Part shown: one piece after another, positions 23,117 to 35,767 of the stretch
How positions within the stretch are numbered: position 1 is the stretch's first letter
Layout: each line of letters opens with the position of its first letter
Assembly (NCBI GenBank): GCA_005879795.1
Contig: VBKJ01000130.1
Coordinates: 1-53,481, forward strand
Length of the DNA stretch: 53,481 nt
Source: Deltaproteobacteria bacterium
Lineage (GTDB): Bacteria > Desulfobacterota > Binatia > DP-6
Direction of reading: 5' to 3'
Translations under genes and position numbers: made by a program
The notes under the pieces: model-generated
Told to the model about the DNA's origin: nothing
Database searches by the model: none
Seen by the model: the letters and a program-made list of their open reading frames with translations, nothing else

Positions 23117-24043
23117 GTGCCCCGCGCCCGCGCCAACGGCATCGAGCTCGAGTACGAGCTCTTCGGCTCCGAGGGCGGGCGGCCGCTCGTCCTGATCATG
23201 GGGCTCGGCGCGCAGATGATCCTCTGGGACGAGGAGTTCTGCGCCGCCCTCGCCGCGCGCGGCCACCGCGTGATCCGCTTCGACAACCGCGACGTCGGGC
23301 TGTCGACGAAGATCGACGGCTGGCGCGCGCTCGACCTGGCCGCGGCGATGGCGGCGGCCGCGCTCGGCCGCCCGGTGGCCGCGCCGTACACCCTCTCCGA
23401 CATGGCGGCCGACGCCGCGGGGCTGCTCGACGCGCTCGGCATCGCGGCCGCACACGTCGTCGGCGCCTCGCTCGGCGGCATGATCGCGCAGACGCTGGCG
23501 ATCGAGCGTCCGGCACGCGTGCTGTCGCTCACCTCGATCATGTCGACGACCGGCGACCGCGAGCTGCCGCGCGCGCGCCCCGAGGCGGTGGCCGCGCTCC
23601 TCGAGCCCCCGCCGCGCGATCGCGACGGTGCGATGGCACGCGCCGCCAAGGTCTTCCGCACCATCGGCAGCCCGGGCTTCCCCTTCGACGAGGCGCGCGT
23701 GCGCGAGCGCGCCGGACGCTCCTACGACCGCTGCTTTCACCCCGCCGGCGTGGCGCGCCAGATGCTCGCCATTCTCGCCGCGGGGAGCCGCGCGCCGGCG
23801 CTCCGGCACGTGCGCGTGCCGACGCTCGTGATCCACGGCACCGAGGATCCGCTCGTTCCCGTCGCGCACGGCATCGAGACCGCCGCGCTCGTCCCCGGGG
23901 CGGAGCTCCTCGTCATCGAGGGCATGGGGCACGACCTCCCGCGCGCCGTGTGGCCGCGGGTGATCGACGCGATCGACGGCGTGAGCGCCCGGGCGGCCGG
24001 CGCCCACGGAGGACGCCGGCGGCTCGTGCCCCCACGTCAGTAG
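23117..24043 (+). CDS. Alpha/beta hydrolase
   Basis: This 308-residue alpha/beta-fold hydrolase is of the epoxide-hydrolase/esterase type. It opens with ANGIELEYELFG and has the oxyanion region LIMGLGAQM. The nucleophile is Ser118 in VVGASLGGMIAQ, the acid Asp lies in VIHGTEDPLVP and the His in EGMGHDLP. The GTG at 23117 directly follows the SDR stop. The motif FDNRDVGLSTKI is typical of a large bacterial hydrolase subgroup. Together with the SDR it could process a ketone/ester substrate, but this is speculative. The 3' end overlaps the convergent small exported protein gene by seven bases. Confidence 0.92.
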   Translation: MPRARANGIELEYELFGSEGGRPLVLIMGLGAQMILWDEEFCAALAARGHRVIRFDNRDVGLSTKIDGWRALDLAAAMAAAALGRPVAAPYTLSDMAADAAGLLDALGIAAAHVVGASLGGMIAQTLAIERPARVLSLTSIMSTTGDRELPRARPEAVAALLEPPPRDRDGAMARAAKVFRTIGSPGFPFDEARVRERAGRSYDRCFHPAGVARQMLAILAAGSRAPALRHVRVPTLVIHGTEDPLVPVAHGIETAALVPGAELLVIEGMGHDLPRAVWPRVIDAIDGVSARAAGAHGGRRRLVPPRQ

Positions 24044-24339
24044 CAGTAGGTCTCGTTTCCGAACTTCCGGCAGAGCCCGGGGTCGGTGCCGACGTTCTGG
24101 AGCTCGAGCCGGAGCGGCCGGTCGGGGACGGCGCGGCCGTCGAAGAGGCCGCCGCCGAAGGGCTGGGGCCGCACGGGCGTGGCGTAGCCGGGATCCGCCG
24201 CCGTCTGCGTGCCGATCACCAGCTGGTTGCCGCCGAGGTCGCATTCGAGCTGGGTCCCGAACCAACGACAGGCCGCCGGCGCGCGGGTCGCGGCGCAGAG
24301 CAGGCCGAACGCGATCAAACCGGGCAGGAATGGCCTCAT
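24037..24339 (-). CDS. Small exported protein of unknown function
   Basis: This 100-residue product starts with a signal peptide (MRPFLPGLIAFGLLCAATRAPA). The mature part has four cysteines (ACRWF, LECDL, GLCRKF, TYCY) arranged for two disulfides at its two ends. The ATG at 24339 is preceded by GAGGAGG at good spacing; an upstream start at 24384 is rejected. It is divergent from the cupredoxin-like gene and shares its 292-bp intergenic region, which contains the sigma-54 module pointing the other way. The family is not recognised. Confidence 0.7.
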   Translation of the reverse strand: MRPFLPGLIAFGLLCAATRAPAACRWFGTQLECDLGGNQLVIGTQTAADPGYATPVRPQPFGGGLFDGRAVPDRPLRLELQNVGTDPGLCRKFGNETYCY

Positions 24340-24447
24340 GAGCGTGACCTCCTCGTGGCCGCTCTGGTGCATGATCTGCGCCATCGTCCGTCGCGCGTTC
24401 CCGCCTCGACGAAGGGCTTCGTCGAAGAGCGCAAGCGCAGCTCATCC

Positions 24448-24482
24448 TGCCGAGCAGTCGGCACCGTGCCGAAATGTCGGCG
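24448..24482. promoter_or_regulatory. Tandem enhancer repeats (TGCCGA-N4-TCGGCA), module 1
   Basis: Two 16-bp inverted repeats stand in tandem: TGCCGA-GCAG-TCGGCA (24448-24463) and TGCCGA-AATG-TCGGCG (24467-24482), start-to-start 19 bp. The -24 element begins 87 bp downstream of the second. The position is that of an upstream activating sequence for a sigma-54 activator. The same pair recurs at 27397 and 33093. Confidence 0.75.
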
Positions 24483-24569
24483 AGCAGCTCGCGGAGCCAC
24501 ATCGTCGAGCACGCCGTGAGCCCGCGGGTTTCCCTGGTTTTGCGGGCGACGTCGTCCCTGCGCGGGCGC

Positions 24570-24583
24570 GGCACGGCAGTTGC
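24570..24583 (+). promoter_or_regulatory. Sigma-54 promoter of the cupredoxin-like gene
   Basis: GGCACG-GCAG-TTGC matches the -24/-12 consensus with the GG and GC dinucleotides correctly spaced. Transcription should start near 24595, 37 bp before the ATG at 24632. The element is nearly identical to those at 27520 and 33222. Confidence 0.8.
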
Positions 24584-24631
24584 GAATGGCGGCCAACGGC
24601 CATTGTGAAGGTCGCAAGGAGGGAGTCGCAC

Positions 24632-25153
24632 ATGGAACAAGAACGTCGTGAGGACAGCACCGAGATGCGTGCGCGGGCGGTCTCCATGATCAGAGGGAGC
24701 GGCATCGTGACCCTGGCACTGGCCCTGGCGCTCGCGGCCGGGGTCGCGTCCGCAGCGGAGGACACGCGCAACCGCACTGGCACCGCACACAAGATCATCG
24801 TGGTCGACAGCGAGCTGATCCGCCCCGCGGCACTGATGATGAGCAAGGACGATGTGCTGGAGTTCGAGAACAACTCCGGCCACGCGATGACGCTCGCCTT
24901 CGTCGAGCCGCGGGATCAGGTCGACAAGATCCGCTGCCACCCGGCCGATCCCGGGCCCGCAGGCCCGGACCAGGCGCGCTGGCCGCTCTACGACTGGGGT
25001 CTGGACAACCAGCTGACGGCGACCATTCCACCGGGAAGGTTCGCGAGCGTCTGCTCGCTCATCCCCGGGGAGTACACTTTCGTTGTCAGGCAGGTCGGCT
25101 TCCCCGGGGCGGACGATGCCCTCGGCACGAAGGGCACGATCACGGTGCAGTGA
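24632..25153 (+). CDS. Exported cupredoxin-like protein
   Basis: This 173-residue protein has an N-terminal export segment (about residues 20-42, with ALALALAAGVASA before the likely cleavage site). Its mature domain looks like a cupredoxin-like beta sandwich: KIIVVDSELIRPAALMMSKD, then LEFENNSGHAMTLAF with a possible His ligand, and SVCSLIPGEYTFVVRQVGF with a possible Cys ligand. The usual second His and Met were not identified, so copper binding is uncertain. The start follows AAGGAGGG at good distance. It is the first gene behind sigma-54 module 1, and the activator gene follows 122 bp later on the same strand. A periplasmic electron-transfer or metal role is inferred. Confidence 0.7.
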   Translation: MEQERREDSTEMRARAVSMIRGSGIVTLALALALAAGVASAAEDTRNRTGTAHKIIVVDSELIRPAALMMSKDDVLEFENNSGHAMTLAFVEPRDQVDKIRCHPADPGPAGPDQARWPLYDWGLDNQLTATIPPGRFASVCSLIPGEYTFVVRQVGFPGADDALGTKGTITVQ

Positions 25154-25275
25154 GCAGGGCCGACACGGCATCGAGCGTCGACGCACGTGGTCCCGCGCCG
25201 GCCCGGCGAGCGCACGTACGGCGCCGAGGGCCATGGATTCAGCGTGAAGGCCACGCTACATGGGGCGACACCTGC

Positions 25276-27390
25276 ATGGCGGACGAACTCCCGACGATCG
25301 CAGACGCGACGGCGAGGGCAGCGCGCGCTCCTCACCGTGCCTGCGCAGGCGCCCCGGGCGATGTCCACCGGATCCTGCTCGATGTCTCGCGCGCCACCGC
25401 CTCGCACCGGGACCTGCCGAGCCTGCTCCGCGATCTGGTGGGACTCCTGGGCCGCGTCGCCCGCTTCGACCGTCTCGGGCTCGTGCTGCACGATCCGGAG
25501 CGCGATCTCATGCGCCTTCACACCCTGGCCTCCCTCGCGCCCACCGCCATCGCGGAAATCGAGCTGCCCGTCCCGGAGTCGCCCGCGGGTATAGCGTGGG
25601 AGACGCAACGGCCCCTCGTCGTGCCGAGCATCGACCGCGAGACGCGGTTTGCCGAGGTCAGACGGATCCTGCGCGCCGAGGGAATGCGGTCGCTCTGCGT
25701 CCTTCCCCTCACGACGCCGCTCCGCCGTCTCGGCGGGCTCACCTTCTCGAGCCGGGACGAAGATGCCTTCTCCGCGGCCGACGTCGAGATCCTGCAGCAG
25801 GTCACCAGCCAGGTGGCGCTGGCCGTCGACAACACGCTTCATCACGAAGCCGCACAGCGGGCGCGGCAGGAGCTGGCCCGGGAACGGGATCGGCTCCAGC
25901 TCCTGCTCGACGTGAACAACGCGCTCATCTCCAACCTCGAACCTCGGGCGCTGTTCAGCGCCATCGCGGCGTGCCTGCGGCGCGTCGTGGCGCACGACTA
26001 CACGAGCCTCGCGGTCTACGACGGCGCGCAGAACGCGTTCGACCTGTGGGCGATCGAGTTCGCCGGCCGGGGCCTCGTGCGAGAGCACATGTCCGTCCCC
26101 GTGGAGGGGTCGCCTGCAGGCGCCGCCTTCACGGCCGGCGCGCCCGTGCGGCTCGAGCGAGCGGACCTCGCGCAGCTCTCGGCCGACGCCGCCGGCCTGC
26201 TGCTCGCCGAGGGCATCCAGTCGATGTGCTGCGTGCCCCTGACGCTCCACGGCCGGCGGCTGGGGACGCTCAACATCGGCCGGCTCGGCAGCGAGCCCTT
26301 CACCGCCGAGCACGCGGAGGTGCTCGCCGCGGTCGCCAATCAGGTCGCCTTCTCCGTCGAGAACGCGCGCGCGTTCCAGGAGATCGCCGCGCTCAAGGAC
26401 AGGCTCGCGGCCGAGAAGGTCTACCTCGAGGACGAGATCCGCACCGACTACAACTTCGAGGAGATCATCGGCGACTCGCCGGCGCTCAAGCAGCTGCTGC
26501 GCCAGGTGGAGACGGTCGCGCCGACCGACTCGGCGGTGCTGATCGGCGGCGAGACCGGCACGGGCAAGGAGCTGATCGCCCGCGCCATCCACGACCTGAG
26601 CGCGCGCCGGGGGAGGACGTTCGTCAAGATCAACTGCGCCGCCATCCCGACGGGCCTCCTCGAGAGCGAGCTGTTCGGCCACGAGCGCGGCGCCTTCACC
26701 GGCGCCATCGCGCAGCGGATCGGCCGCTTCGAGCTGGCGGACCGCGGGACGCTCTTCCTCGACGAGGTCGGCGACATCCCGCTCGAGCTGCAGCCGAAGC
26801 TGCTCCGCGTGCTCCAGGAGCAGGAGTTCGAGCGTCTGGGTGGCACGCACACGAAGCGGGTCGACGTGCGCGTGGTGGCGGCGACGAACCGGGAGCTGGA
26901 GGAGATGGTCGCCGCCGGGACGTTCCGGAACGACCTGTACTATCGCCTGAACGTCTTCCCGATCCTGCTCCCGCCGCTGCGCGAGCGGCCGGAGGACATC
27001 CCGTCCCTCGTCCGCTACTTCGTGCAGAAGTTCGCGCGCCGCATGAAGAAGCCGATCGAGACCATCCCGGCGGAGGCGATGGCGGCGCTCTGCCGCTATG
27101 CGTGGCCGGGGAACGTGCGCGAGCTCGAGAACGCCATCGAGCGCGCCGTCATCCTGACCAGCGGGCCCGTCCTGCGCGTGCCCGTAGCGGAGTTCCGCCG
27201 CGGCGCGGTCGTGCCCTCGCGCGGCGACGCGACGCTCGAGGCGACGGAGCGCGAGGCCATCCTCCGCGCGCTGCGCGAGACCGACTGGGTGCTCGGCGGT
27301 CCACACGGGGCCGCCGCCCGGCTGGGGCTCAAGCGAACGACCCTCCAGTCACGGATGACCAGGATCGGCATCCGCCGCCCCGACGCGTGA
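25276..27390 (+). CDS. Sigma-54-dependent activator with two GAF domains (FhlA/NorR-like)
   Basis: This 704-residue bacterial enhancer-binding protein has two GAF sensor domains at about residues 25-170 and 200-355. They are followed by the AAA+ domain with Walker A GETGTGKE (425-432), the sigma-54 contact loop GAFTGA (472-477) and Walker B LFLDEVGD. A C-terminal Fis-type helix-turn-helix ends in GAAARLGLKRTTLQSRM. The ATG at 25276 is chosen because codon usage before it is not coding-like, although a GTG at 25150 overlaps the preceding stop. GAF domains may sense a small molecule, gas or redox cue. It is the likely binder of the three tandem repeats, one pair of which starts 7 bp after its own stop. 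Confidence 0.93.
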   Translation: MADELPTIADATARAARAPHRACAGAPGDVHRILLDVSRATASHRDLPSLLRDLVGLLGRVARFDRLGLVLHDPERDLMRLHTLASLAPTAIAEIELPVPESPAGIAWETQRPLVVPSIDRETRFAEVRRILRAEGMRSLCVLPLTTPLRRLGGLTFSSRDEDAFSAADVEILQQVTSQVALAVDNTLHHEAAQRARQELARERDRLQLLLDVNNALISNLEPRALFSAIAACLRRVVAHDYTSLAVYDGAQNAFDLWAIEFAGRGLVREHMSVPVEGSPAGAAFTAGAPVRLERADLAQLSADAAGLLLAEGIQSMCCVPLTLHGRRLGTLNIGRLGSEPFTAEHAEVLAAVANQVAFSVENARAFQEIAALKDRLAAEKVYLEDEIRTDYNFEEIIGDSPALKQLLRQVETVAPTDSAVLIGGETGTGKELIARAIHDLSARRGRTFVKINCAAIPTGLLESELFGHERGAFTGAIAQRIGRFELADRGTLFLDEVGDIPLELQPKLLRVLQEQEFERLGGTHTKRVDVRVVAATNRELEEMVAAGTFRNDLYYRLNVFPILLPPLRERPEDIPSLVRYFVQKFARRMKKPIETIPAEAMAALCRYAWPGNVRELENAIERAVILTSGPVLRVPVAEFRRGAVVPSRGDATLEATEREAILRALRETDWVLGGPHGAAARLGLKRTTLQSRMTRIGIRRPDA

Positions 27391-27396
27391 GCTGGC

Positions 27397-27430
27397 CGCC
27401 GACATCTCGGCGCGTGCCGAGATGCCGGCA
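27397..27430. promoter_or_regulatory. Tandem enhancer repeats, module 2
   Basis: CGCCGA-CATC-TCGGCG (27397-27412, perfect arms) and TGCCGA-GATG-CCGGCA (27415-27430, one mismatch) stand 18 bp start-to-start. A partial further half-site TCGGCA is at 27439. The -24 element lies 89 bp downstream, the same geometry as modules 1 and 3. Confidence 0.72.
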
Positions 27431-27519
27431 CCGGCGTTTCGGCATTGCCCCACGGGCTCGACGCCCGACCCGCGATCCGACGGGTAGACTTCGGCGGTCC
27501 TGACGCCCCCCGCGGCACG

Positions 27520-27533
27520 GGCACGGAAGTTGC
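27520..27533 (+). promoter_or_regulatory. Sigma-54 promoter of the STAS/aldo-keto reductase operon
   Basis: GGCACG-GAAG-TTGC matches the -24/-12 consensus. The start of transcription is expected near 27545, only a few bases before the ATG at 27548. The first gene would therefore be nearly leaderless, or its start lies further in. Confidence 0.78.
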
Positions 27534-27547
27534 CTTCACGGAGAGGC

Positions 27548-27871
27548 ATGCTGCCGATCACCGCCACGACACCGCCTCGGCCAGGCCGGGCTCGAATCCG
27601 GGCGGCGCTGCTCGGCGTCGTTGCGTGTGCCGCCGTCCTCGCCGCCGGCCGTGGCTCGCTCGCAGCGGGAGCGAGCGAGGACGATTGCCGGAAGTTTCAC
27701 GAGGAATGCACGGAGGCGAGGGCGCTCGGGTATCGCGACGTCGGCATCTGCAACGTCGAACGGCTCGAGTGCAAGAGCGGGCCGGCGAACGCCCCCGACG
27801 CCGGCGTCGGGAGGAGGCCGCGCGGCGCGCCTGGTCCGCGGCAGGACCCCGAAAGCTCCATCGGCCCATGA
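27548..27871 (+). CDS. Small exported protein, first gene of the sigma-54 operon
   Basis: This 107-residue product has an N-terminal export segment (IRAALLGVVACAAVLAAG) and a mature part with three Cys (DDCRKFHEECTEAR, then GICNVERLECKSG) in the spacing of a small helical Cys-hairpin. The C-terminus is Gly/Pro/Arg-rich and looks disordered. It starts within a few bases of the predicted sigma-54 transcription start and its stop overlaps the next start (ATGA). No family is recognised; short Cys-hairpin exported proteins can act as metal or redox binders, which would suit the cupredoxin-like gene under the same control. Confidence 0.6.
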   Translation: MLPITATTPPRPGRARIRAALLGVVACAAVLAAGRGSLAAGASEDDCRKFHEECTEARALGYRDVGICNVERLECKSGPANAPDAGVGRRPRGAPGPRQDPESSIGP

Positions 27872-28308
27872 CGATGCCGAGTCCCATGCGGGTCCCCGCC
27901 GATCGACCGGATGGCGAGCTCGAGCCGGAGACCGTGCTCCCCTGCCAGCTCGGCGACGCGCTCTTCGACACGGCCCGGCTCCAGCCCGAGAAGCGCCTGC
28001 AGCTCGCCGTGCTCCAGGATGCCGTCCTCACCTTGCACCGATGCGTGGGCAACGATGGCTCCCGCGCGCGGCGTCTCGTCGCGGAAGTGGACGCCTGGTT
28101 CGCGTCGGACGCCACGGACTGGCCCTTCGCGTTCGTGAGCATCTGCCACACGCTCAATCTCGACCCCGCCTACGTCCGCACCGGCCTGCCGCGCTGGCGC
28201 GCGCGGCTCGAGGCCGAGGCCGATCGAAGGCTTCCCTTTCGTCGCGACCAGAACGGGACACGCCACCAGGTGCGGCTCTACGATACGGAGCTGAAGCGCA
28301 CCGCGTGA
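27868..28308 (+). CDS. Conserved-looking protein of unknown function
   Basis: This 146-residue soluble protein has no signal peptide. Its centre reads QLAVLQDAVLTLHRCVGND, then VDAWFASDATDWPFAFVSIC and LNLDPAYVRTGLPRWR. This W-P-F-x-F-x2-IC...LxLDPxYxRxGL pattern looks familiar from uncharacterised proteins of deltaproteobacterial type, but I cannot name a family. The helical, tryptophan-containing core suggests a protein-interaction domain. The ATGA overlap with the preceding gene and the 16-bp gap to the STAS gene place it in the operon. A regulatory partner role to the STAS protein is only a guess. Confidence 0.65.
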   Translation: MTMPSPMRVPADRPDGELEPETVLPCQLGDALFDTARLQPEKRLQLAVLQDAVLTLHRCVGNDGSRARRLVAEVDAWFASDATDWPFAFVSICHTLNLDPAYVRTGLPRWRARLEAEADRRLPFRRDQNGTRHQVRLYDTELKRTA

Positions 28309-28324
28309 CGTGGGAGGCAGGGCG

Positions 28325-28642
28325 ATGCTGCGAATCACCGTGACGACACGCCCCGACGGGGCGACGGTCGCGCTCGAGGGACGACTCGCCGGGCCCTGGG
28401 TGGACGAGCTCCGGGCGTGCTGGCGAAGCCTGGTGGCCGCCCCGGGCGCCCGCTCGATCCGCATCGACCTCCACGCCGTGACGTTCATCGACACTGCCGG
28501 CAAGGCCCTGCTCTGGGCGATGCACGAGCAGGGGGCGGTGCTCGCGGCCTCCGGCTGCATGACGCGGGCGATCCTGGAGGAGATCGGCACGAAGTCACGC
28601 GAGCGCGGCGGCCCGAACGGCGCTGCGAAGGGAGACGATTGA
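28325..28642 (+). CDS. STAS-domain protein
   Basis: This 105-residue single-domain protein has the STAS fold of anti-sigma-factor antagonists and MlaB-like proteins. Visible elements are ALEGRLAGPWVDELRACW, the central strand SIRIDLHAVTFIDTAGKALL and the helix MHEQGAVLAASGCM. At the phospho-acceptor position (D-[ST]) it has IDTAG, with Thr as candidate acceptor. The stop overlaps the next ATG (TGATG). Within the sigma-54 operon it may work as a switch protein or as a ligand-binding adaptor. No cognate kinase is nearby. Confidence 0.82.
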   Translation: MLRITVTTRPDGATVALEGRLAGPWVDELRACWRSLVAAPGARSIRIDLHAVTFIDTAGKALLWAMHEQGAVLAASGCMTRAILEEIGTKSRERGGPNGAAKGDD

Positions 28643-29697
28643 TGGAATACGTGAAGATTCCGGGCACGGGTCTCTCGCCGTCCCGCATCGGGCTCGGCAC
28701 CTGGGCGATCGGGGGCTGGATGTGGGGCGGAACCGACACGGAGCGCTCGATCCAGACCATCTGCGCGGCCCTCGAGCGCGGCATCTCGCTGATCGACACG
28801 GCCCCCGCGTACGGCCAGGGTCAGTCCGAGGAGATCGTGGGCAAGGCGCTGGCGCGCTGGGGACGCCGCGATCGCGTCGTCCTCGCCACCAAGGTCGGGC
28901 TCGAGTGGCGGAGCGATGGCGCGGTGGCCCGAAACGCGAGCCGCGGGCGCATCATGCAGGAGATCGCCGCGTCCTTGCGGCGCCTGCGCACCGACTACAT
29001 CGACATCTACCAGGTCCACTGGCCCGATCCGCTGGTTCCCATCGAGGAGACGGCGGAAGCGCTCCACCGGCTGTACAGGGACGGGCGCATCCGCGCCATC
29101 GGCGTCAGCAACCACTCGCCGGAGCAGATGGACGCGTTCCGGCAGGTGGCACCGCTCCATACCGCACAGCCGCCCTACAACCTGTTCGAGCGGGAGGCCG
29201 AGGAGGAGGTGCTCCCCTACTGCCAGTGGCACGGCATCACCACGCTGACCTACGGCGCGCTCTGCCGCGGGCTCCTTTCCGGGCGCATGGGGCCGGACAC
29301 CCGCTTCGGCGGCGACGACCTGCGCCAGACCGACCCGAAGTTCCGCCCCCCGCGCTACGCGCAGTACCTGCGCGCCGTTGCCGCGCTCGAGCGCGTCGCG
29401 CGCCAGTGGTACGCGCGAAGCGTCCTCGCCCTCGCCGTGCGCTGGGTGCTGGACCAGCCCGGCGTCCAGGTTGCGCTGTGGGGTGCCCGCAGTCCGGAGC
29501 AGCTCGAGCCGCTCGACGAGGTGTTGGGCTGGTCGCTCGACGCGGACGCGAAGCGGGCGATCGACGCGCTCCTGCGCGAGACCGTGACCGCTCCCGTGGG
29601 CGCCGAGTTCATGGCGCCGCCGGCCCGCGCGGCGCGGCCGCCGCACGAGGCGATGCGGGGGACGGACGGCTTCCCGATCAACGCGCCCGCACGCTGA
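28642..29697 (+). CDS. Aldo/keto reductase
   Basis: This 351-residue NADPH-dependent aldo/keto reductase has the complete catalytic tetrad: Asp52 and Tyr57 in IDTAPAYGQG, Lys84 in LATKVGLEW and His126 in YQVHWPDP. The (beta/alpha)8 barrel elements SLRRLRTDYIDIYQVH and IGVSNHS, and the late SVLALAVRWVLDQPGVQVAL segment, are typical of the YajO/YccK-like group. Residues beyond 320 are Ala/Pro-rich. It is the last gene of the sigma-54 operon and overlaps tail-to-tail with the Mla lipoprotein gene by 20 bp. It would draw NADPH, which the zwf/gnd operon under the same control can supply. Confidence 0.92.
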   Translation: MEYVKIPGTGLSPSRIGLGTWAIGGWMWGGTDTERSIQTICAALERGISLIDTAPAYGQGQSEEIVGKALARWGRRDRVVLATKVGLEWRSDGAVARNASRGRIMQEIAASLRRLRTDYIDIYQVHWPDPLVPIEETAEALHRLYRDGRIRAIGVSNHSPEQMDAFRQVAPLHTAQPPYNLFEREAEEEVLPYCQWHGITTLTYGALCRGLLSGRMGPDTRFGGDDLRQTDPKFRPPRYAQYLRAVAALERVARQWYARSVLALAVRWVLDQPGVQVALWGARSPEQLEPLDEVLGWSLDADAKRAIDALLRETVTAPVGAEFMAPPARAARPPHEAMRGTDGFPINAPAR

Positions 29698-30268
29698 TCA
29701 CCACGGCGTCCGCCACCCGCGCGACGACGTCGTCCAGGGCCAGGCCCATCGCCCGCGCCATCGACGCCGGCTCATCGTCGGCGATGCCGACTCGCGCGCT
29801 GAACGTCCGGTTGAGGAGGCCCCCGCGCTCCGGGTCCCACAGCGAGACGGCGAGGGTGACATCGGCCGCGTGCGCCGGCGCGAACACCTCGTCGAATGCG
29901 AGCAGGTCGACGCGCAGCGCTGCTGCGCGGGGGTCCTCCGTCAGCCGCAGTCCGGCCGTCTCGCCGAGCCGCGTCCTGAGCGCGCGTTCCGCGTAGTGCG
30001 CCGGCAGGTCGATCCACTGTCGCTGCTCGTAGAGGCCGTACTCCACCTCCGAGACGCGCCAGACGATGCGGTGACGGAGGAAAGGCGCGCCCCGGACCGC
30101 GCGGAGGCGGATCGCCACCCCACCGGCGGCCGGAGGCGACGCGCCGACCTCGCCGGTCGCATCCAGCGCCACCGAGCCGGGCTGGAAGAAGCGTGGCGGG
30201 TCGGCATTGCGCAGGAGGCAGGCGCCGAGGAGCGCCGTTCCCGCCAGGAGCCACGGACGGCTCCTCAT
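29678..30268 (-). CDS. ABC-transport auxiliary lipoprotein (PqiC/YmbA-like)
   Basis: This 196-residue outer-membrane or periplasmic lipoprotein carries the lipobox LLGAC within the first 20 residues (LLAGTALLGACLLR). The mature domain follows the PF03886-type 'ABC_trans_aux' pattern: AIRLRAVRGAPFLRHRIVWR, YGLYEQRQWIDLPAHYAE and RVDLLAFDEVFAPAHA. It overlaps the MlaD gene by four bases. It is the last gene of the order permease, ATPase, MCE protein, lipoprotein, a layout of phospholipid/MCE transporters in which this lipoprotein takes the outer-membrane end of the path. Some of the 3' end overlaps the convergent reductase gene. Confidence 0.85.
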   Translation of the reverse strand: MRSRPWLLAGTALLGACLLRNADPPRFFQPGSVALDATGEVGASPPAAGGVAIRLRAVRGAPFLRHRIVWRVSEVEYGLYEQRQWIDLPAHYAERALRTRLGETAGLRLTEDPRAAALRVDLLAFDEVFAPAHAADVTLAVSLWDPERGGLLNRTFSARVGIADDEPASMARAMGLALDDVVARVADAVVISVRAR

Positions 30269-31170
30269 CGACTTTTTGCCGGGACCGCGCCGTCGGCCCG
30301 CGGACCCCGCAGGAGCATGCTCGGATCGCGCTCCAGGGAGTCTGCCAGCGTGCGCACTGACTCGAGCGCCTCGCCCACCGCCCGCAGGCTCGCCTGCAGC
30401 TCCTCGCGCGCGTCGCTCACGCTGGCCGCCGCCTGGCCGACGGACGCCGACGCGTCCCGGATCGACGCCGCGGTGGCGCCGAGCTTCGCTTCGTCGAGCG
30501 CCTTGTCGACGCGCGCCGCCGCCGTACGCAGCTCTTGCAGCGCCTGCTTGAAGGACCCGTCCTCTCCCGCCAGGTCGGCGGCCAGGCGGTCGATCGACGC
30601 GAGCGTCTTCTTCACGTCGGCCAACGCGTCCTTCGCGCGGTCCGCGAGCACCGGCAGGCGGTTCATGATCTCGACGGCCGCCTCCTCCACGTTCTTCAGG
30701 GTCGACGGCGCCGAGGGCACGTAGTTCCACGGCGGCTCGAAGGGCAGGCGCGGGGGCGGATAGCGCTCGGGGTCGAAGAAGTCCGTCTGGATGAAGCGGA
30801 CGCCGGTGATGCCGGCCGAGGCGAGCTGGACACGCAATCTCGGATCGATGAACTCCTCGCCGGACCTGGGTGCCCGGGTCCGAAGCCCCAGGCGGGCGAG
30901 CGCGTCGACGTATATATCGGAAGTGACCTGGACGTGGCGGTGATCGGGCGCGATCGTGATGTCGGCGACGGTGCCGACGGTCACGCCGCGGAACTTGACC
31001 GGTGAGCCCACGTCGAGCCCCTGCACCGACTCGTCGAAGTAGCTGATCGCCGGGAACGACTCGCGACGGAACCGCCGCGCCCCGAGCCAGAAGAGCGTGC
31101 CCAGCGTCGCGCCGACGGCGAGCAACACGAACAGGCCGAGCTTCCAGTGGTTGGTGGCGGTGGTCGCCAT
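30265..31170 (-). CDS. MCE-domain (MlaD-like) substrate-binding protein
   Basis: This 301-residue protein has one N-terminal transmembrane helix (residues 9-30, LGLFVLLAVGATLGTLFWLG). The MCE domain follows at about 38-118 (YFDESVQGLDVGSPVKFRGV) and then a long helical, coiled-coil-like C-terminal part (170-285). MCE proteins form hexameric rings or needles that carry lipids across the periplasm. The long helix suggests a tube-forming member such as PqiB or LetB relatives rather than short MlaD. It starts one base after the ATPase stop. Together with the ATPase and permease it would form an inner-membrane lipid importer/exporter. Confidence 0.92.
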   Translation of the reverse strand: MATTATNHWKLGLFVLLAVGATLGTLFWLGARRFRRESFPAISYFDESVQGLDVGSPVKFRGVTVGTVADITIAPDHRHVQVTSDIYVDALARLGLRTRAPRSGEEFIDPRLRVQLASAGITGVRFIQTDFFDPERYPPPRLPFEPPWNYVPSAPSTLKNVEEAAVEIMNRLPVLADRAKDALADVKKTLASIDRLAADLAGEDGSFKQALQELRTAAARVDKALDEAKLGATAASIRDASASVGQAAASVSDAREELQASLRAVGEALESVRTLADSLERDPSMLLRGPRADGAVPAKSR

Positions 31171-31171
31171 C

Positions 31172-31894
31172 TCAAGCGGCCCGCGACCGGGGATTGAAGA
31201 AGGCGCGGACCTGCGGATCGGCGCTCCCGTCGCGGAGCGCCGCGGGCTCACCCCGCGCGATGATACCGTGCGTCTGGCCGTCCAGCATGATGCAGTGCCT
31301 GGCAATTGCGAAGATGCTCCGCAGCTCGTGCGTGACCGCGATCGTCGTCATGCCGAGGCTCGCATTCAGCGTCGCGATGAGGTCGTCGAGCTCCGCGGAG
31401 GTGACTGGATCGAGGCCCGCCGATGGCTCGTCGAGGAACAGCAGGGGCGGGTCGAGCGCCAGCGCGCGCGCGATCCCTGCACGTTTCTTCATGCCACCCG
31501 AGATCTCCGCCGGGAGGTGGTTCTCGAAGCCCTCGAGTCCCACCAGGCGGAGCTTCGACCGGACGATCGTGTCCATCGCGGTGCGGTCGAGATTGGTCCA
31601 TTTCGCGAGCGGCAAGGTGACGTTCTCCGCGAGGGTCATCGAGCCGAAGAGCGCCCCCGACTGGAAGAGCACGCCGTAGCACGGGGGTCCCTCGCGGGGC
31701 GGGGGCGCGCCCGCGATGCGGATCGTGCCGCGCAGGGGCTCCTCGAGGCCGATCAGCGCGCGGAGCAAGGTCGACTTCCCGCTCCCGCTCCCGCCCAGGA
31801 TGGCGAACACGTCGCCGCGGGGCACGGTGAAGTCGAGGTTCTCGAGCACGACCGTGTCGCCGTAGCCGAGCGTCAGGCGCTCGACCTCGATCAT
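31172..31894 (-). CDS. MlaF-like ABC ATPase
   Basis: This ATPase of an MCE lipid transporter has about 240 residues. Walker A is GGSGSGKST, the signature EISGGMKKRAGIARAL is the variant typical of Mla-type ATPases, and Walker B is LLFLDEPSAGLDP. The H-loop is in VTHEL. The ATG at 31894 gives the standard start (MIEVERLTLGYGD); a start at 31918 would overlap the permease end by 17 bp. The C-terminal end (DPQVRAFFNPRS) resembles the MlaF tail. The gene order permease-ATPase-MCE-lipoprotein is conserved. Confidence 0.93.
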   Translation of the reverse strand: MIEVERLTLGYGDTVVLENLDFTVPRGDVFAILGGSGSGKSTLLRALIGLEEPLRGTIRIAGAPPPREGPPCYGVLFQSGALFGSMTLAENVTLPLAKWTNLDRTAMDTIVRSKLRLVGLEGFENHLPAEISGGMKKRAGIARALALDPPLLFLDEPSAGLDPVTSAELDDLIATLNASLGMTTIAVTHELRSIFAIARHCIMLDGQTHGIIARGEPAALRDGSADPQVRAFFNPRSRAA

Positions 31895-31901
31895 GGGTGG
31901 G

Positions 31902-33038
31902 TCAGCGGCCGAAGGCATTGAAGAGCACGGTGAAGATCGCGTCGACGACCACGATGGCGAAGAGACTCGTCACCACTGCCGAGGTCGTCGCCCGGCCCAC
32001 GCCCTCGGCGCCGCCGCGCGCGGCGAGGCCGCGCTGGCACGCGATGAGCGCGATGCCGAGCCCGAAGAACACGGTCTTGAGGCACCCCGAGAAGACGTCC
32101 CAGAGCCCCAGGGCCTTCTGCGTCTCGATGAGGTACGCGTTGGACGTGATGTCGAGGCCGAGCATCGCGACCAGGAGCCCGCCAGCGATTCCTATCACGT
32201 CCGCGAGGATCGTGAGCAGCGGCAGCACGAGCACGAGGGTGACGACGCGCGGGAAGACGAGGAAACCGTACGGGTCGAGGCCGAGCGTCCGCAGCGCATC
32301 GATCTCCTCGGAGACCCGCATCGTGCCGAGCTCGGCCGAGAACGCTGCGCCCGAGCGGCCGGCCACGATGATCGCCGTCATGAGCGGCGCCAGCTCCCGC
32401 GTGACCGAGAGCCCCACCAGGTCGGCCACGAAGATGTTGGCCCCGAACTGCTTGAGCTGCACGGCGGCCTGGAAGGCCGTCACGAGACCGACCAGGAAGT
32501 TGATCACGAGGACGATCGGGAGGCTGTCGGCCCCGGCGCGCTCCACGAGCCGCGGGACGTCGCCCCAGTTGATGGAGAACGGCGCGCGGACCGCCCTTGC
32601 GCCAGCCACCGCCACGTCGCCGATGAAGTCGAGCCCATGGCTTTCGCTGAGCATCGTGAGGGTCTCGCGGCCGATCTCGTCGAGGATGCCGAGCCGGGCC
32701 GGCGGCCGGTGTAGGCTCGGTCGGGGTGGGTGCAACCCGTAGAGATCGAGCATGGCGCGGACGCGGCCGTGCGCGCCGACGATCTCGGCCTCGCCGCCGG
32801 CCGCGGCGACCTCGTCGCGAAGCGCGAGCAGGAGCGCGGTGGCGGCGCCGTCGAGCGTGTCCACGCCGGAGAGGTCGAGCGCCAGGCGCGCGGCCGGAGG
32901 ACGAGCCAGGCGGCGCACGCTCTGCCACGAGGCGAAGCACTGCCGGAAGCGAAGCTGCCCCCCGAAGCGCAGCTCGGACCGGCCGTCCTGCAGGTCGACC
33001 CGCTCGACGCGGAACCCGGGGTCGTGGGGGTCGCTCAC
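31902..33038 (-). CDS. MlaE-family permease fused to a STAS domain
   Basis: This is a 378-residue fusion. Residues 1-105 form a STAS domain (RLALDLSGVDTLDGAATALL), the role played by separate MlaB in E. coli. Residues 120-378 are the MlaE permease with five or six helices and the conserved segments VLVINFLVGLVTAFQAAVQL, AELGTMRVSEEIDALRTLG and the C-terminal VVTSLFAIVVVDAIFTVLF. The GTG at 33038 is the only start that includes the STAS domain. It is the first gene of the lipid-transport operon; the divergent sugar operon with sigma-54 module 3 lies upstream. No MlaC homologue is seen here. Confidence 0.9.
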   Translation of the reverse strand: MSDPHDPGFRVERVDLQDGRSELRFGGQLRFRQCFASWQSVRRLARPPAARLALDLSGVDTLDGAATALLLALRDEVAAAGGEAEIVGAHGRVRAMLDLYGLHPPRPSLHRPPARLGILDEIGRETLTMLSESHGLDFIGDVAVAGARAVRAPFSINWGDVPRLVERAGADSLPIVLVINFLVGLVTAFQAAVQLKQFGANIFVADLVGLSVTRELAPLMTAIIVAGRSGAAFSAELGTMRVSEEIDALRTLGLDPYGFLVFPRVVTLVLVLPLLTILADVIGIAGGLLVAMLGLDITSNAYLIETQKALGLWDVFSGCLKTVFFGLGIALIACQRGLAARGGAEGVGRATTSAVVTSLFAIVVVDAIFTVLFNAFGR

Positions 33039-33092: not shown

Positions 33093-33128
33093 TGCCGACG
33101 GCGCGGCACCGGTGCCGGGCCGTCGGCA
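33093..33128. promoter_or_regulatory. Tandem enhancer repeats, module 3
   Basis: TGCCGA-CGGC-GCGGCA (33093-33108) and TGCCGG-GCCG-TCGGCA (33113-33128) stand 20 bp start-to-start, each with one mismatch. The whole segment is also a large dyad: outer arms TGCCGACGGC / GCCGTCGGCA around the perfect palindrome CGGCACCGGTGCCG. The -24 element lies 93 bp downstream. Confidence 0.75.
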
Positions 33129-33221
33129 CGCAGCCCCTCGCGCGTCGTTGGCAGCCGCGCCAAGAGCCCGAGATCTCGCCATTTCTGCGTCGATGGTCTC
33201 GGTGCCGGTGGCCCTCCGTGC

Positions 33222-33235
33222 GGCACGGAGGTTGC
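33222..33235 (+). promoter_or_regulatory. Sigma-54 promoter of the gnd-zwf-glk operon
   Basis: GGCACG-GAGG-TTGC matches the -24/-12 consensus and differs only in the spacer from the elements at 24570 and 27520. Transcription should start near 33247, about 130 bp before the gnd ATG. Confidence 0.8.
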
Positions 33236-33377
33236 GGAGCCCAGGAGCAGCGGCACGCGGACTGGCGTGAAGGAAGGGCGTGAGCCTAAGTGGAGTTGGG
33301 GATTGGGTTGAGGTACGCAGGGCGAGCAGGGCGTTCACGTCGGGGCGCACGGGGAACGTCGTCGAGAGGAGGATCGG

Positions 33378-34385
33378 ATGCAAGTCGGCATGATCGGTCT
33401 CGGTCGGATGGGCGCCAACATGGTGCGACGTCTCCTGCGCGGCGGCCACGAGTGCGTGGTGCACGACGTCTCGCCCGAGGCCGTCCAGGCGCTGGCGCGC
33501 GAGGGCGCGGTCGGGGCGGTCTCGCTGGACGACCTCGCGGCGCGCCTCGCGAAGCCGCGGGTCGTCTGGCTGATGGTGCCCGCCGCGGTGGTGGATGCCA
33601 CGCTCCGCGACCTCGTCTCGCGCCTCGCGGGGGGCGACGTCGTCGTCGACGGCGGGAACTCGTACTACCGGGACGACATCGAGCGCGCGAAGCAGCTCGC
33701 GACCCGAGGCCTCCGCTACGTCGACTGCGGCACGAGCGGCGGCGTGTGGGGCGTGGAGCGGGGCTACTGCCTCATGATCGGCGGGGAGCCGGAGGTCGTG
33801 CAGCGGCTCGACCCGCTCTTCGCGACGCTCGCGCCCGGCGCCGGTTCGATCGGCCTCACCCGGGCGGCCGGCACGGCGGAGCGGGGCTATCTCCATTGCG
33901 GCCCGCACGGGGCCGGCCACTTCGTGAAGATGGTGCACAACGGCATCGAGTACGGGCTCATGGCGGCCTACGCCGAGGGCCTCAACATCCTGCGGCACGC
34001 GAACGTCGGAAAGCGGGCCCGCGCCGCCGACGCCGAGACGACGCCGCTCCGCAACCCGGAGTACTACCAGTACGACTTCGACCTCGTCCGCATCGCCGAG
34101 GTCTGGCGGCACGGCAGCGTGATCGCCTCGTGGCTGCTGGACCTGACGGCCGCGGCGCTGGCGAGCGACCAGACGCTCGCGCGCTTCACCGGACGGGTGT
34201 CGGACTCGGGCGAGGGGCGCTGGACGCTGGATGCGGCCATCGACGAAGCCGTGCCCGCGCACGTCCTCGCCGCCGCGCTGCTCGAGCGCTTCGCCTCGCG
34301 CGGCGAGGCCGACTTCCAGGACCGGCTGCTGTCCGCCATGCGCTTCGAGTTCGGCGGCCACGTGGAGAAGGGCCCGCGGACATGA
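33378..34385 (+). CDS. gnd: 6-phosphogluconate dehydrogenase, decarboxylating, short form
   Basis: This 335-residue enzyme oxidises and decarboxylates 6-phosphogluconate to ribulose 5-phosphate in the oxidative pentose phosphate pathway. The dinucleotide motif is GLGRMG (residues 7-12), substrate contacts are in [11 protein letters not shown] and CGTSGGVWG, and the catalytic Lys/Asn region is [16 protein letters not shown]. The length matches the short GntZ/YqeC-like class, often NAD-preferring, rather than the 470-residue class. It heads the operon gnd-zwf-glk-phosphatase, with four-base overlaps throughout, behind sigma-54 module 3. Confidence 0.95.
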
Positions 34386-35767
34386 GCGCGCCCCCCTCCG
34401 ACGCGCTCGTCTTCTTCGGGGCGACCGGCGACCTCGCCGCCAAGAAGATCTTCCCGGCGCTGCACGCGATGGCCCGCCGCGGCCACCTCGACGTGCCCCT
34501 CGTCGGGGTGGCGCGGGGCGGCTGGACGCTCGAGCGCCTGCGGGCGCGCGCCCGTGAGAGCATCGAGCGTCACGGCGGGGGCGTGGACGAGACCGCCTTC
34601 GCGCGGCTCGCGAGCCGGCTCCGCTTCGTCGGGGGCGACTACGACGCCGCGACCACCTACACGGCCCTCCGCCAGGCGCTGGGCGACACGGTGCGGCCGC
34701 TCCACTACCTCGCCATCCCGCCGAGCCTCTTCCCGACCGTCGTCCAGGGGCTGGCCAGCTCGGACTGCGCGCGCGGCGCGCGCGTGGTCCTGGAGAAACC
34801 GTTCGGCCGCGACCTGCCCTCGGCGCAGGCCCTCAACGCGACGCTCCACCGGGTGTTCGACGAGGCGTCGATCTTCCGCATCGACCACTACCTGGGCAAG
34901 GAGCCGGTGCAGAACCTCCTCCTCGTCCGCTTCGCCAACACCTTCCTCGAGCCGATCTGGAACCGCAACTACGTCGAGAGCGTGCAGATCACGATGGCCG
35001 AGCGCTTCGGCGTCGAGGGGCGGGGGCGGCTCTACGAGGAGGTGGGCGCGATCCGCGACGTGATCCAGAACCACATGCTCCAGGTGGTCGGCTTCCTCGC
35101 CATGGAGCCGCCGGCGACCACCTACCACGAGTCGATCCGGGACGAGCAGGTGAAGGTCTTCCGGATGATCCGCCCGCTCAGCGCCGCCGACCTGGTACGG
35201 GGGCAGTTCCGTGGCTACCGGAAAGAGGTGGGCGTCGCGCCCGACTCGACCGTGGAGACGTTCGCCGCCGTCCGCCTGCACGTCGACTCCTGGCGCTGGG
35301 ACGGCGTGCCGTTCTTCATCCGGGCGGGCAAGTGCCTCGCCGCCACCACCACCGAGGTGCTGGTCACGCTGCGGCGGCCCCCGCTCAGCAAGCTCTGCCC
35401 GCACGAGACGAACTACGTGCGCTTCCGCCTGAGCCCCGAGGTGACGATCGCGATCGGCGCGCGCGTGAAGCGGCCGGGCGAGCAGATGACCACCGACCCG
35501 ACCGAGCTCCGCTTCGTCCACCAGCCCGATGGCGAGGAGATGGACGCCTACGAGCGCCTGCTCGGCGACGCCATGCACGGCGACGCGACGCTCTTCGCGC
35601 GCGAGGACGGCGTCGAGGCGGCGTGGGCGATCGTGCAGCCCATCCTCGGCGGCACGACGCCGATCCACATCTACGAGCCCGGCAGCTGGGGGCCGGACGA
35701 GGCCGCGCGCTTGACGGCCGGGGTCGGCGGCTGGCACTCGCCGGCGCAAGGGCCGGAGGCATCGTGA
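34382..35767 (+). CDS. zwf: Glucose-6-phosphate 1-dehydrogenase
   Basis: This 461-residue enzyme forms 6-phosphogluconolactone and reduced NAD(P). The cofactor motif [15 protein letters not shown] is at residues 13-27, and the active-site signature RIDHYLGKE contains the catalytic His. EKPFGRDL and the [15 protein letters not shown] stretch are also typical. The length is slightly below the usual 480-510. Overlaps of four bases with gnd and of one base with glk show operon coupling. No separate 6-phosphogluconolactonase was found, so hydrolysis of the lactone must come from elsewhere or be spontaneous. Confidence 0.96.

Follow-up and report, generated by a model that had tools for sequence, protein, structure and literature searches.

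Sigma-54 enhancer-binding activators of the FhlA type combine a GAF-GAF-AAA+-Fis domain order with upstream dyad sites and sigma-54 target promoters. FhlA-like activators have been linked to carboxylate metabolism, and control of the bacterial exterior by sigma-54 has been described before (PMC3162934). Small STAS domain proteins are known both as anti-sigma antagonists (SpoIIAA, TM1442) and as MlaB, which binds MlaF (PMC7367683). In the open-access literature searched, we found no paper connecting STAS proteins to sigma-54 activators, none connecting Binatota to sigma-54, and no description of the gene combination reported here, in line with the sequence-only reading, which had not recognised it as a described system. 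The window analysed here is the whole contig of 53,481 bp (G000:C130), part of a 4.1 Mb assembly of 280 contigs from an uncultured soil bacterium. It contains an operon of four genes behind an FhlA-like activator. The operon is among the outputs of a wider regulon that has not been described before, and our confidence in this regulon is high. The reading we prefer, with a probability of roughly 0.6, is that Candidatus Binatia have a one-component sigma-54 regulon with envelope and redox outputs, in which STAS and a second protein, WPF, form a regulatory pair.

The activator gene (25150-27390, plus strand) starts at 25150 or 25276, with the ATG at 25276 the likely start. Its product has two GAF domains, an AAA+ domain (Sigma54_activat, PF00158, 246 bits, cut-off 20.2) with the GAFTGA motif in the translation, and a Fis-type helix-turn-helix (HTH) whose HTH_8 match is slightly under the Pfam cut-off. 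With the NCBIfam FhlA model it scores 587.7 bits, under the equivalog cut-off of 830. It resembles FhlA-type activators in domain order, in upstream dyad sites and in the sigma-54 promoters of its candidate targets, but it differs from FhlA in its operator, a TGCCGA-N4-TCGGCA dyad, and in its putative targets, which are envelope and redox genes instead of formate hydrogenlyase genes. The hallmarks of a sigma-54 enhancer-binding regulon are all present: the AAA+ domain, RpoN encoded in the genome (TIGR02395, 428 bits) and GG-N10-GC sites below repeated activator sites. A second activator copy, 74% identical, is found behind an exact dyad on source contig C168 (L172:5110-6066), where it is cut by the contig end; it is a paralog or stems from a contaminating strain.

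Four open reading frames follow the activator gene on the plus strand, as first reported, and make up one operon: CYS (27548-27871), the WPF protein (27868-28308), STAS, a stand-alone STAS_2 protein (28325-28642), and AKR, an aldo/keto reductase (28642-29697). The overlaps described earlier are present, ATGA for CYS/WPF and TGATG for STAS/AKR, and WPF and STAS are separated by a 16 nt gap containing GGGAGG. CYS had been described as an exported Cys-hairpin protein. Its N-terminus looks like a signal peptide when read by eye, and the mature part carries C-x6-C-x13-C-x6-C (C47, C54, C68, C75). It may form a CHCH-like hairpin, a fold of two helices joined by two disulfides; a low-confidence single-sequence structure prediction shows one helix in the mature part. 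AKR was correctly named a reductase (Aldo_ket_red, PF00248, 253.5 bits), and the tetrad residues D52, Y57, K84 and H126 are present. Its closest solved relative is general stress protein 69 of B. subtilis (YhdN, PDB 1pz1), a full-length match with an E value of 1.6e-140. The B. subtilis protein is under sigma-B control, whereas AKR is found behind a sigma-54 promoter.

The -24/-12 site of the operon, GGGCACGGAAGTTGCC (27519-27534, plus strand), is located 88 bp below tandem dyad 2, CGCCGACATCTCGGCGCGTGCCGAGATGCCGGCA (27397-27430; no strand is assigned to the dyads), which holds the candidate activator sites for the operon. The upstream inverted repeat resolves into two TGCCGA-N4-TCGGCA dyads, 18-20 bp apart. 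Tandem dyad 1 (24448-24482, exact at 24448-24463 and with one mismatch at 24467-24482) is placed between two divergent promoters, of which CGGCACGGCAGTTGCG (24569-24584, plus strand) serves a small exported protein and the activator, and the sigma-54-like site TGGCGCAGATCATGCA (24368-24383, minus strand) serves a small protein containing the sequence CRWFGTQ. Tandem dyad 3 (33093-33128) and the sigma-54 site CGGCACGGAGGTTGCG (33221-33236, plus strand) are upstream of gnd-zwf. A sigma-54 site alone occurs at chance level in the window (7 sites versus 5.9 expected) and was for this reason dropped as evidence by itself; it is the promoter together with the upstream tandem dyad that supports the earlier proposal of a sigma-54 operon with its activator next door. 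The predicted transcript start at approximately 27545 leaves a leader of only about 3 nt ahead of the CYS start codon, an oddity that counts against the preferred reading. The distance is equally short before a WPF gene in a related locus (L058), and both mRNAs may be near-leaderless.

Dyad pairs (dyads 17-20 bp apart) followed by a promoter were scanned for in 1.49 Mb of fetched related loci, with the identical sequences read backwards as control and with plain match counts as promoter scores. The combination occurs 38 times versus none in the reversed control, a count that overstates the genome-wide density, given that dyad-bearing loci are partly in the fetched set by selection; the second dyad and the promoter were never selection criteria, and the contrast with the control is unaffected by dyad-based fetching. 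The GG-N10-GC site follows the dyad pair at a distance of approximately 40-100 bp, once at 144. When seven genomes of this family are scanned in full, the exact single dyad has 29 matches and the backward pattern 4; an excess is also seen for the sigma-54 core. Across ten aligned promoters there is hardly any variation in the dyad arms or in the GGCAC...TTGC core, while the spacer is variable. Looser dyad matches elsewhere in the source genome come without a second dyad or promoter.

The activator had been taken to be private to the four-gene operon. Instead, tandem dyads and sigma-54 sites mark a regulon, with members in the window and in relatives. In the window these are the four-gene operon; the small exported protein encoded immediately before the activator gene (24632-25150, plus strand; cupredoxin-like by eye only, no Pfam match), conserved near the activator in G004, G005 and G006, together with the activator itself; the CRWFGTQ protein (24040-24339, minus strand), a small exported Cys-containing protein conserved beside the dyad in G002, G004 and G005 and with no match in a Pfam search; and the gnd-zwf pair, encoding 6-phosphogluconate dehydrogenase (33378-34385, plus strand; NCBIfam PRK09599, 460 bits, cut-off 271) and glucose-6-phosphate dehydrogenase (34382-35767, plus strand; TIGR00871, 480 bits, cut-off 400). 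Given that dyad 3 and a sigma-54 site directly precede gnd-zwf, the oxidative pentose phosphate pathway falls in the same regulon. Nearly all relatives found by protein searches are either Candidatus Binatia/Binatota or bins of soil 'Deltaproteobacteria'; many are fragmented assemblies, with genes called by a simple script and Pfam checks on selected genes. Their dyad-promoter genes encode MlaA, MlaC/HpnM, a nucleotidyltransferase, glycine-zipper lipoproteins, CopM/DUF305, an AcrB-type pump, gnd, small exported proteins, CYS homologs, and WPF with an alpha/beta hydrolase and pirin. The regulon matches the published theme of sigma-54 control directed at envelope components (PMC3162934), and goes beyond it in its specific activator, its specific dyad, its undescribed small proteins and its oxidative pentose phosphate genes.

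The sugar genes also allow for an explanation from carbon metabolism, in which a small carboxylate or sugar intermediate is the signal for the activator, the oxidative pentose phosphate pathway is induced together with glycogen turnover, and AKR is a metabolic aldehyde reductase. Oxidative pentose phosphate and glycogen debranching genes fit carbon metabolism as well as stress, and in G005 a single stretch reads activator-STAS-AKR-epimerase (ribulose-phosphate)-debranching enzyme-gnd. The presence of gnd-zwf in the window regulon and the carboxylate link of FhlA-like activators count in the same direction. However, the other members (MlaA, MlaC, the AcrB-type pump, glycine-zipper lipoproteins, the CopM-like protein and exported Cys proteins) are not carbon genes, and we consider this explanation unlikely. 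In the envelope and redox regulon that we favour, the FhlA-like activator would bind the tandem dyads 40-100 bp above the sigma-54 promoters and switch on its own gene together with scattered envelope and redox genes, and its GAF domains would respond to an envelope or redox cue. AKR, an enzyme of general-stress type, could draw NADPH from the co-regulated gnd and zwf, and CYS and the other small Cys proteins may act outside the cytoplasm. The regulon probably protects the cell envelope and redox balance; that stress is the trigger we infer from gene content, with moderate confidence.

A Mla-type lipid ABC operon (29681-33035, minus strand; STAS-MlaE, MlaF-like ATPase, MlaD and auxiliary lipoprotein) adjoins the four genes, and STAS could accordingly be a MlaB-like partner of this transporter, with the operon serving outer-membrane lipid asymmetry. 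The binding of MlaB to MlaF (PMC7367683), an activator-STAS-MlaA arrangement in G418 and the position of MlaA and MlaC genes below dyads in G005 speak for such a role. However, the local MlaE already has its own STAS domain, fused at the N-terminus, and most STAS loci have no Mla gene in reach. The stand-alone protein scores only 17.1 bits with the MlaB equivalog (cut-off 90), and its profile matches the anti-sigma antagonists TM1442 and SpoIIAA in the PDB, not MlaB, which makes a role in the Mla system improbable. Dyad 3 is just upstream of the Mla operon, where no minus-strand sigma-54 site was identified. The earlier identification of the stand-alone protein as a STAS protein holds by a narrow pass (Pfam STAS_2, 29.8 bits, cut-off 29.2), and with the anti-sigma factor antagonist family TIGR00377 it reaches 18.1 bits, below the cut-off of 53.45. 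The phospho-acceptor position varies among orthologs (T, S, D or A), and this variation speaks against phosphorylation as a conserved switch. STAS has the same small domain as SpoIIAA/TM1442 and MlaB but, unlike these, adjoins a sigma-54 activator and WPF.

An even sample of the phylum gave the source genome as the sole STAS match, and the search was therefore run again at class level (Binatia), in which 27 STAS loci were counted. Neither STAS nor WPF was found in plasmid records, and no STAS was found in viral contigs. The gene-neighbourhood search, set beforehand as the test able to refute the claim that the four genes are one system, shows that they do not stay together. Clear CYS homologs exist in only 3 of 58 genomes (source, G002 and G005), and in G002 and G005 they are elsewhere in the genome, yet also below dyad and sigma-54 sites. 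The place of AKR is taken elsewhere by thioredoxin, pirin, an alpha/beta hydrolase or an ABC efflux set. The four genes are thus no fixed unit, and the view that they form one system is not supported. In G005, the one relative that keeps the STAS-reductase pair, AKR (89% identical) follows STAS without CYS or WPF, and the order in G002 and G006 is activator-STAS-WPF-hydrolase or pirin. Family f2 (L239, L238, L242 and L243) has STAS-thioredoxin-WPF, once followed by a pirin-like gene, and no sigma-54 site was found directly before its STAS. G003 has three STAS copies, each heading an ABC efflux-like set (gene roles by eye) behind CGGCACG-N4-TTGCG.

What is conserved are two pairs, activator-STAS and STAS-WPF, whereas the enzymes and the exported protein vary. 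An activator AAA domain accompanies STAS at 12 of the 27 loci and WPF is within 1.5 kb on the same strand at 10 of them, so the earlier link between STAS and the then-unknown WPF protein extends across Binatia families. The differences in gene order and partners between genera would also fit mere co-regulation, that is, unrelated stress genes sharing one type of promoter, with STAS and WPF as hitch-hikers. This is very improbable, given that STAS and WPF are adjacent in both family f1 and family f2 and nearly so in f7, far above chance for approximately 15 WPF copies per genome.

WPF was reported as a protein of no recognised family, and it indeed has no Pfam match, but it is not unique: there are 18 copies in the source genome, and each of the 58 genomes searched has between 1 and 18. 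Judged by its sequences, WPF is a large undescribed family, almost confined to the Candidatus Binatia group, with the common core E-KRLMLAVLEDA...WPFSFENICEAL-LDP-YLRRGL. AlphaFold2 predicts residues ~40-119 with high confidence as four helices, the last two of which (89-95 and 100-119) are spaced like a helix-turn-helix. Comparison with solved structures (Foldseek, VIA-align) gave no significant relative and low Z-scores, and profile searches of PHROGs, Pfam and PDB gave only weak, scattered HTH-type matches. An alignment of all paralogs is too diverse for a collection scan, which was run with a narrower one. The helix pattern and the weak matches suggest that WPF may be a small HTH-like, probably DNA-binding, auxiliary factor. 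A sigma-54-like site is found within 120 bp of 35 of 124 WPF genes, whereas 33 of 809 other genes have one (odds ratio 9.2; p 2e-15 with no correction for relatedness). When the genes are clustered at 60-70% identity, such a site is still present in about a quarter of the clusters, so the excess does not come from one ortholog group alone. One paralog (L024:6118-6729) has a C-terminal extension that by eye resembles two more helix-turn-helix segments, with no Pfam match. Another copy (L011:6200-6649) is located beside parB-like, dnaA-like and ATP synthase genes and has its own sigma-54-like site, TGGCACGCTGCATGCT. Binatia-type WPF loci also appear in public bins titled Klebsiella pneumoniae (L089, L118 and L121), and these titles look wrong.

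For the uncultured phylum, these results provide a concrete and testable regulon with a defined operator, and a family absent from Pfam whose expansion reaches 18 copies in a single genome. On contig C57 of the source genome (loci L234/L223), a sister module consists of an activator related to that of the window (56% over the aligned part), the dyad CCGCGA-N4-TCGCGG, a sigma-54 site and STAS, directly followed by an ECF sigma factor gene. Within the regulon, STAS may be the switch partner of the activator and, in the sister branch, of the ECF sigma factor, with WPF as an auxiliary factor, the two together tuning the response; our confidence in these roles is low. Still more speculative, and in our view doubtful, is that WPF proteins are Binatia-specific, sigma-54-tied small auxiliary transcription factors that form a new partner-switch with STAS, coupling sigma-54 activators, and ECF sigma factors in the sister branch, to the redox and envelope state. 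Should STAS and WPF act together with the activator, sigma-54 would be gated in a new manner, and sigma-54 and ECF control would be connected through the STAS-ECF arrangement. In G051 (L232:4166-5044) STAS domain and ECF sigma factor form a fusion protein, and the STAS-ECF genes of G051 and C57 are both found behind a sigma-54 site and the dyad CCGCGA-N4-TCGCGG.
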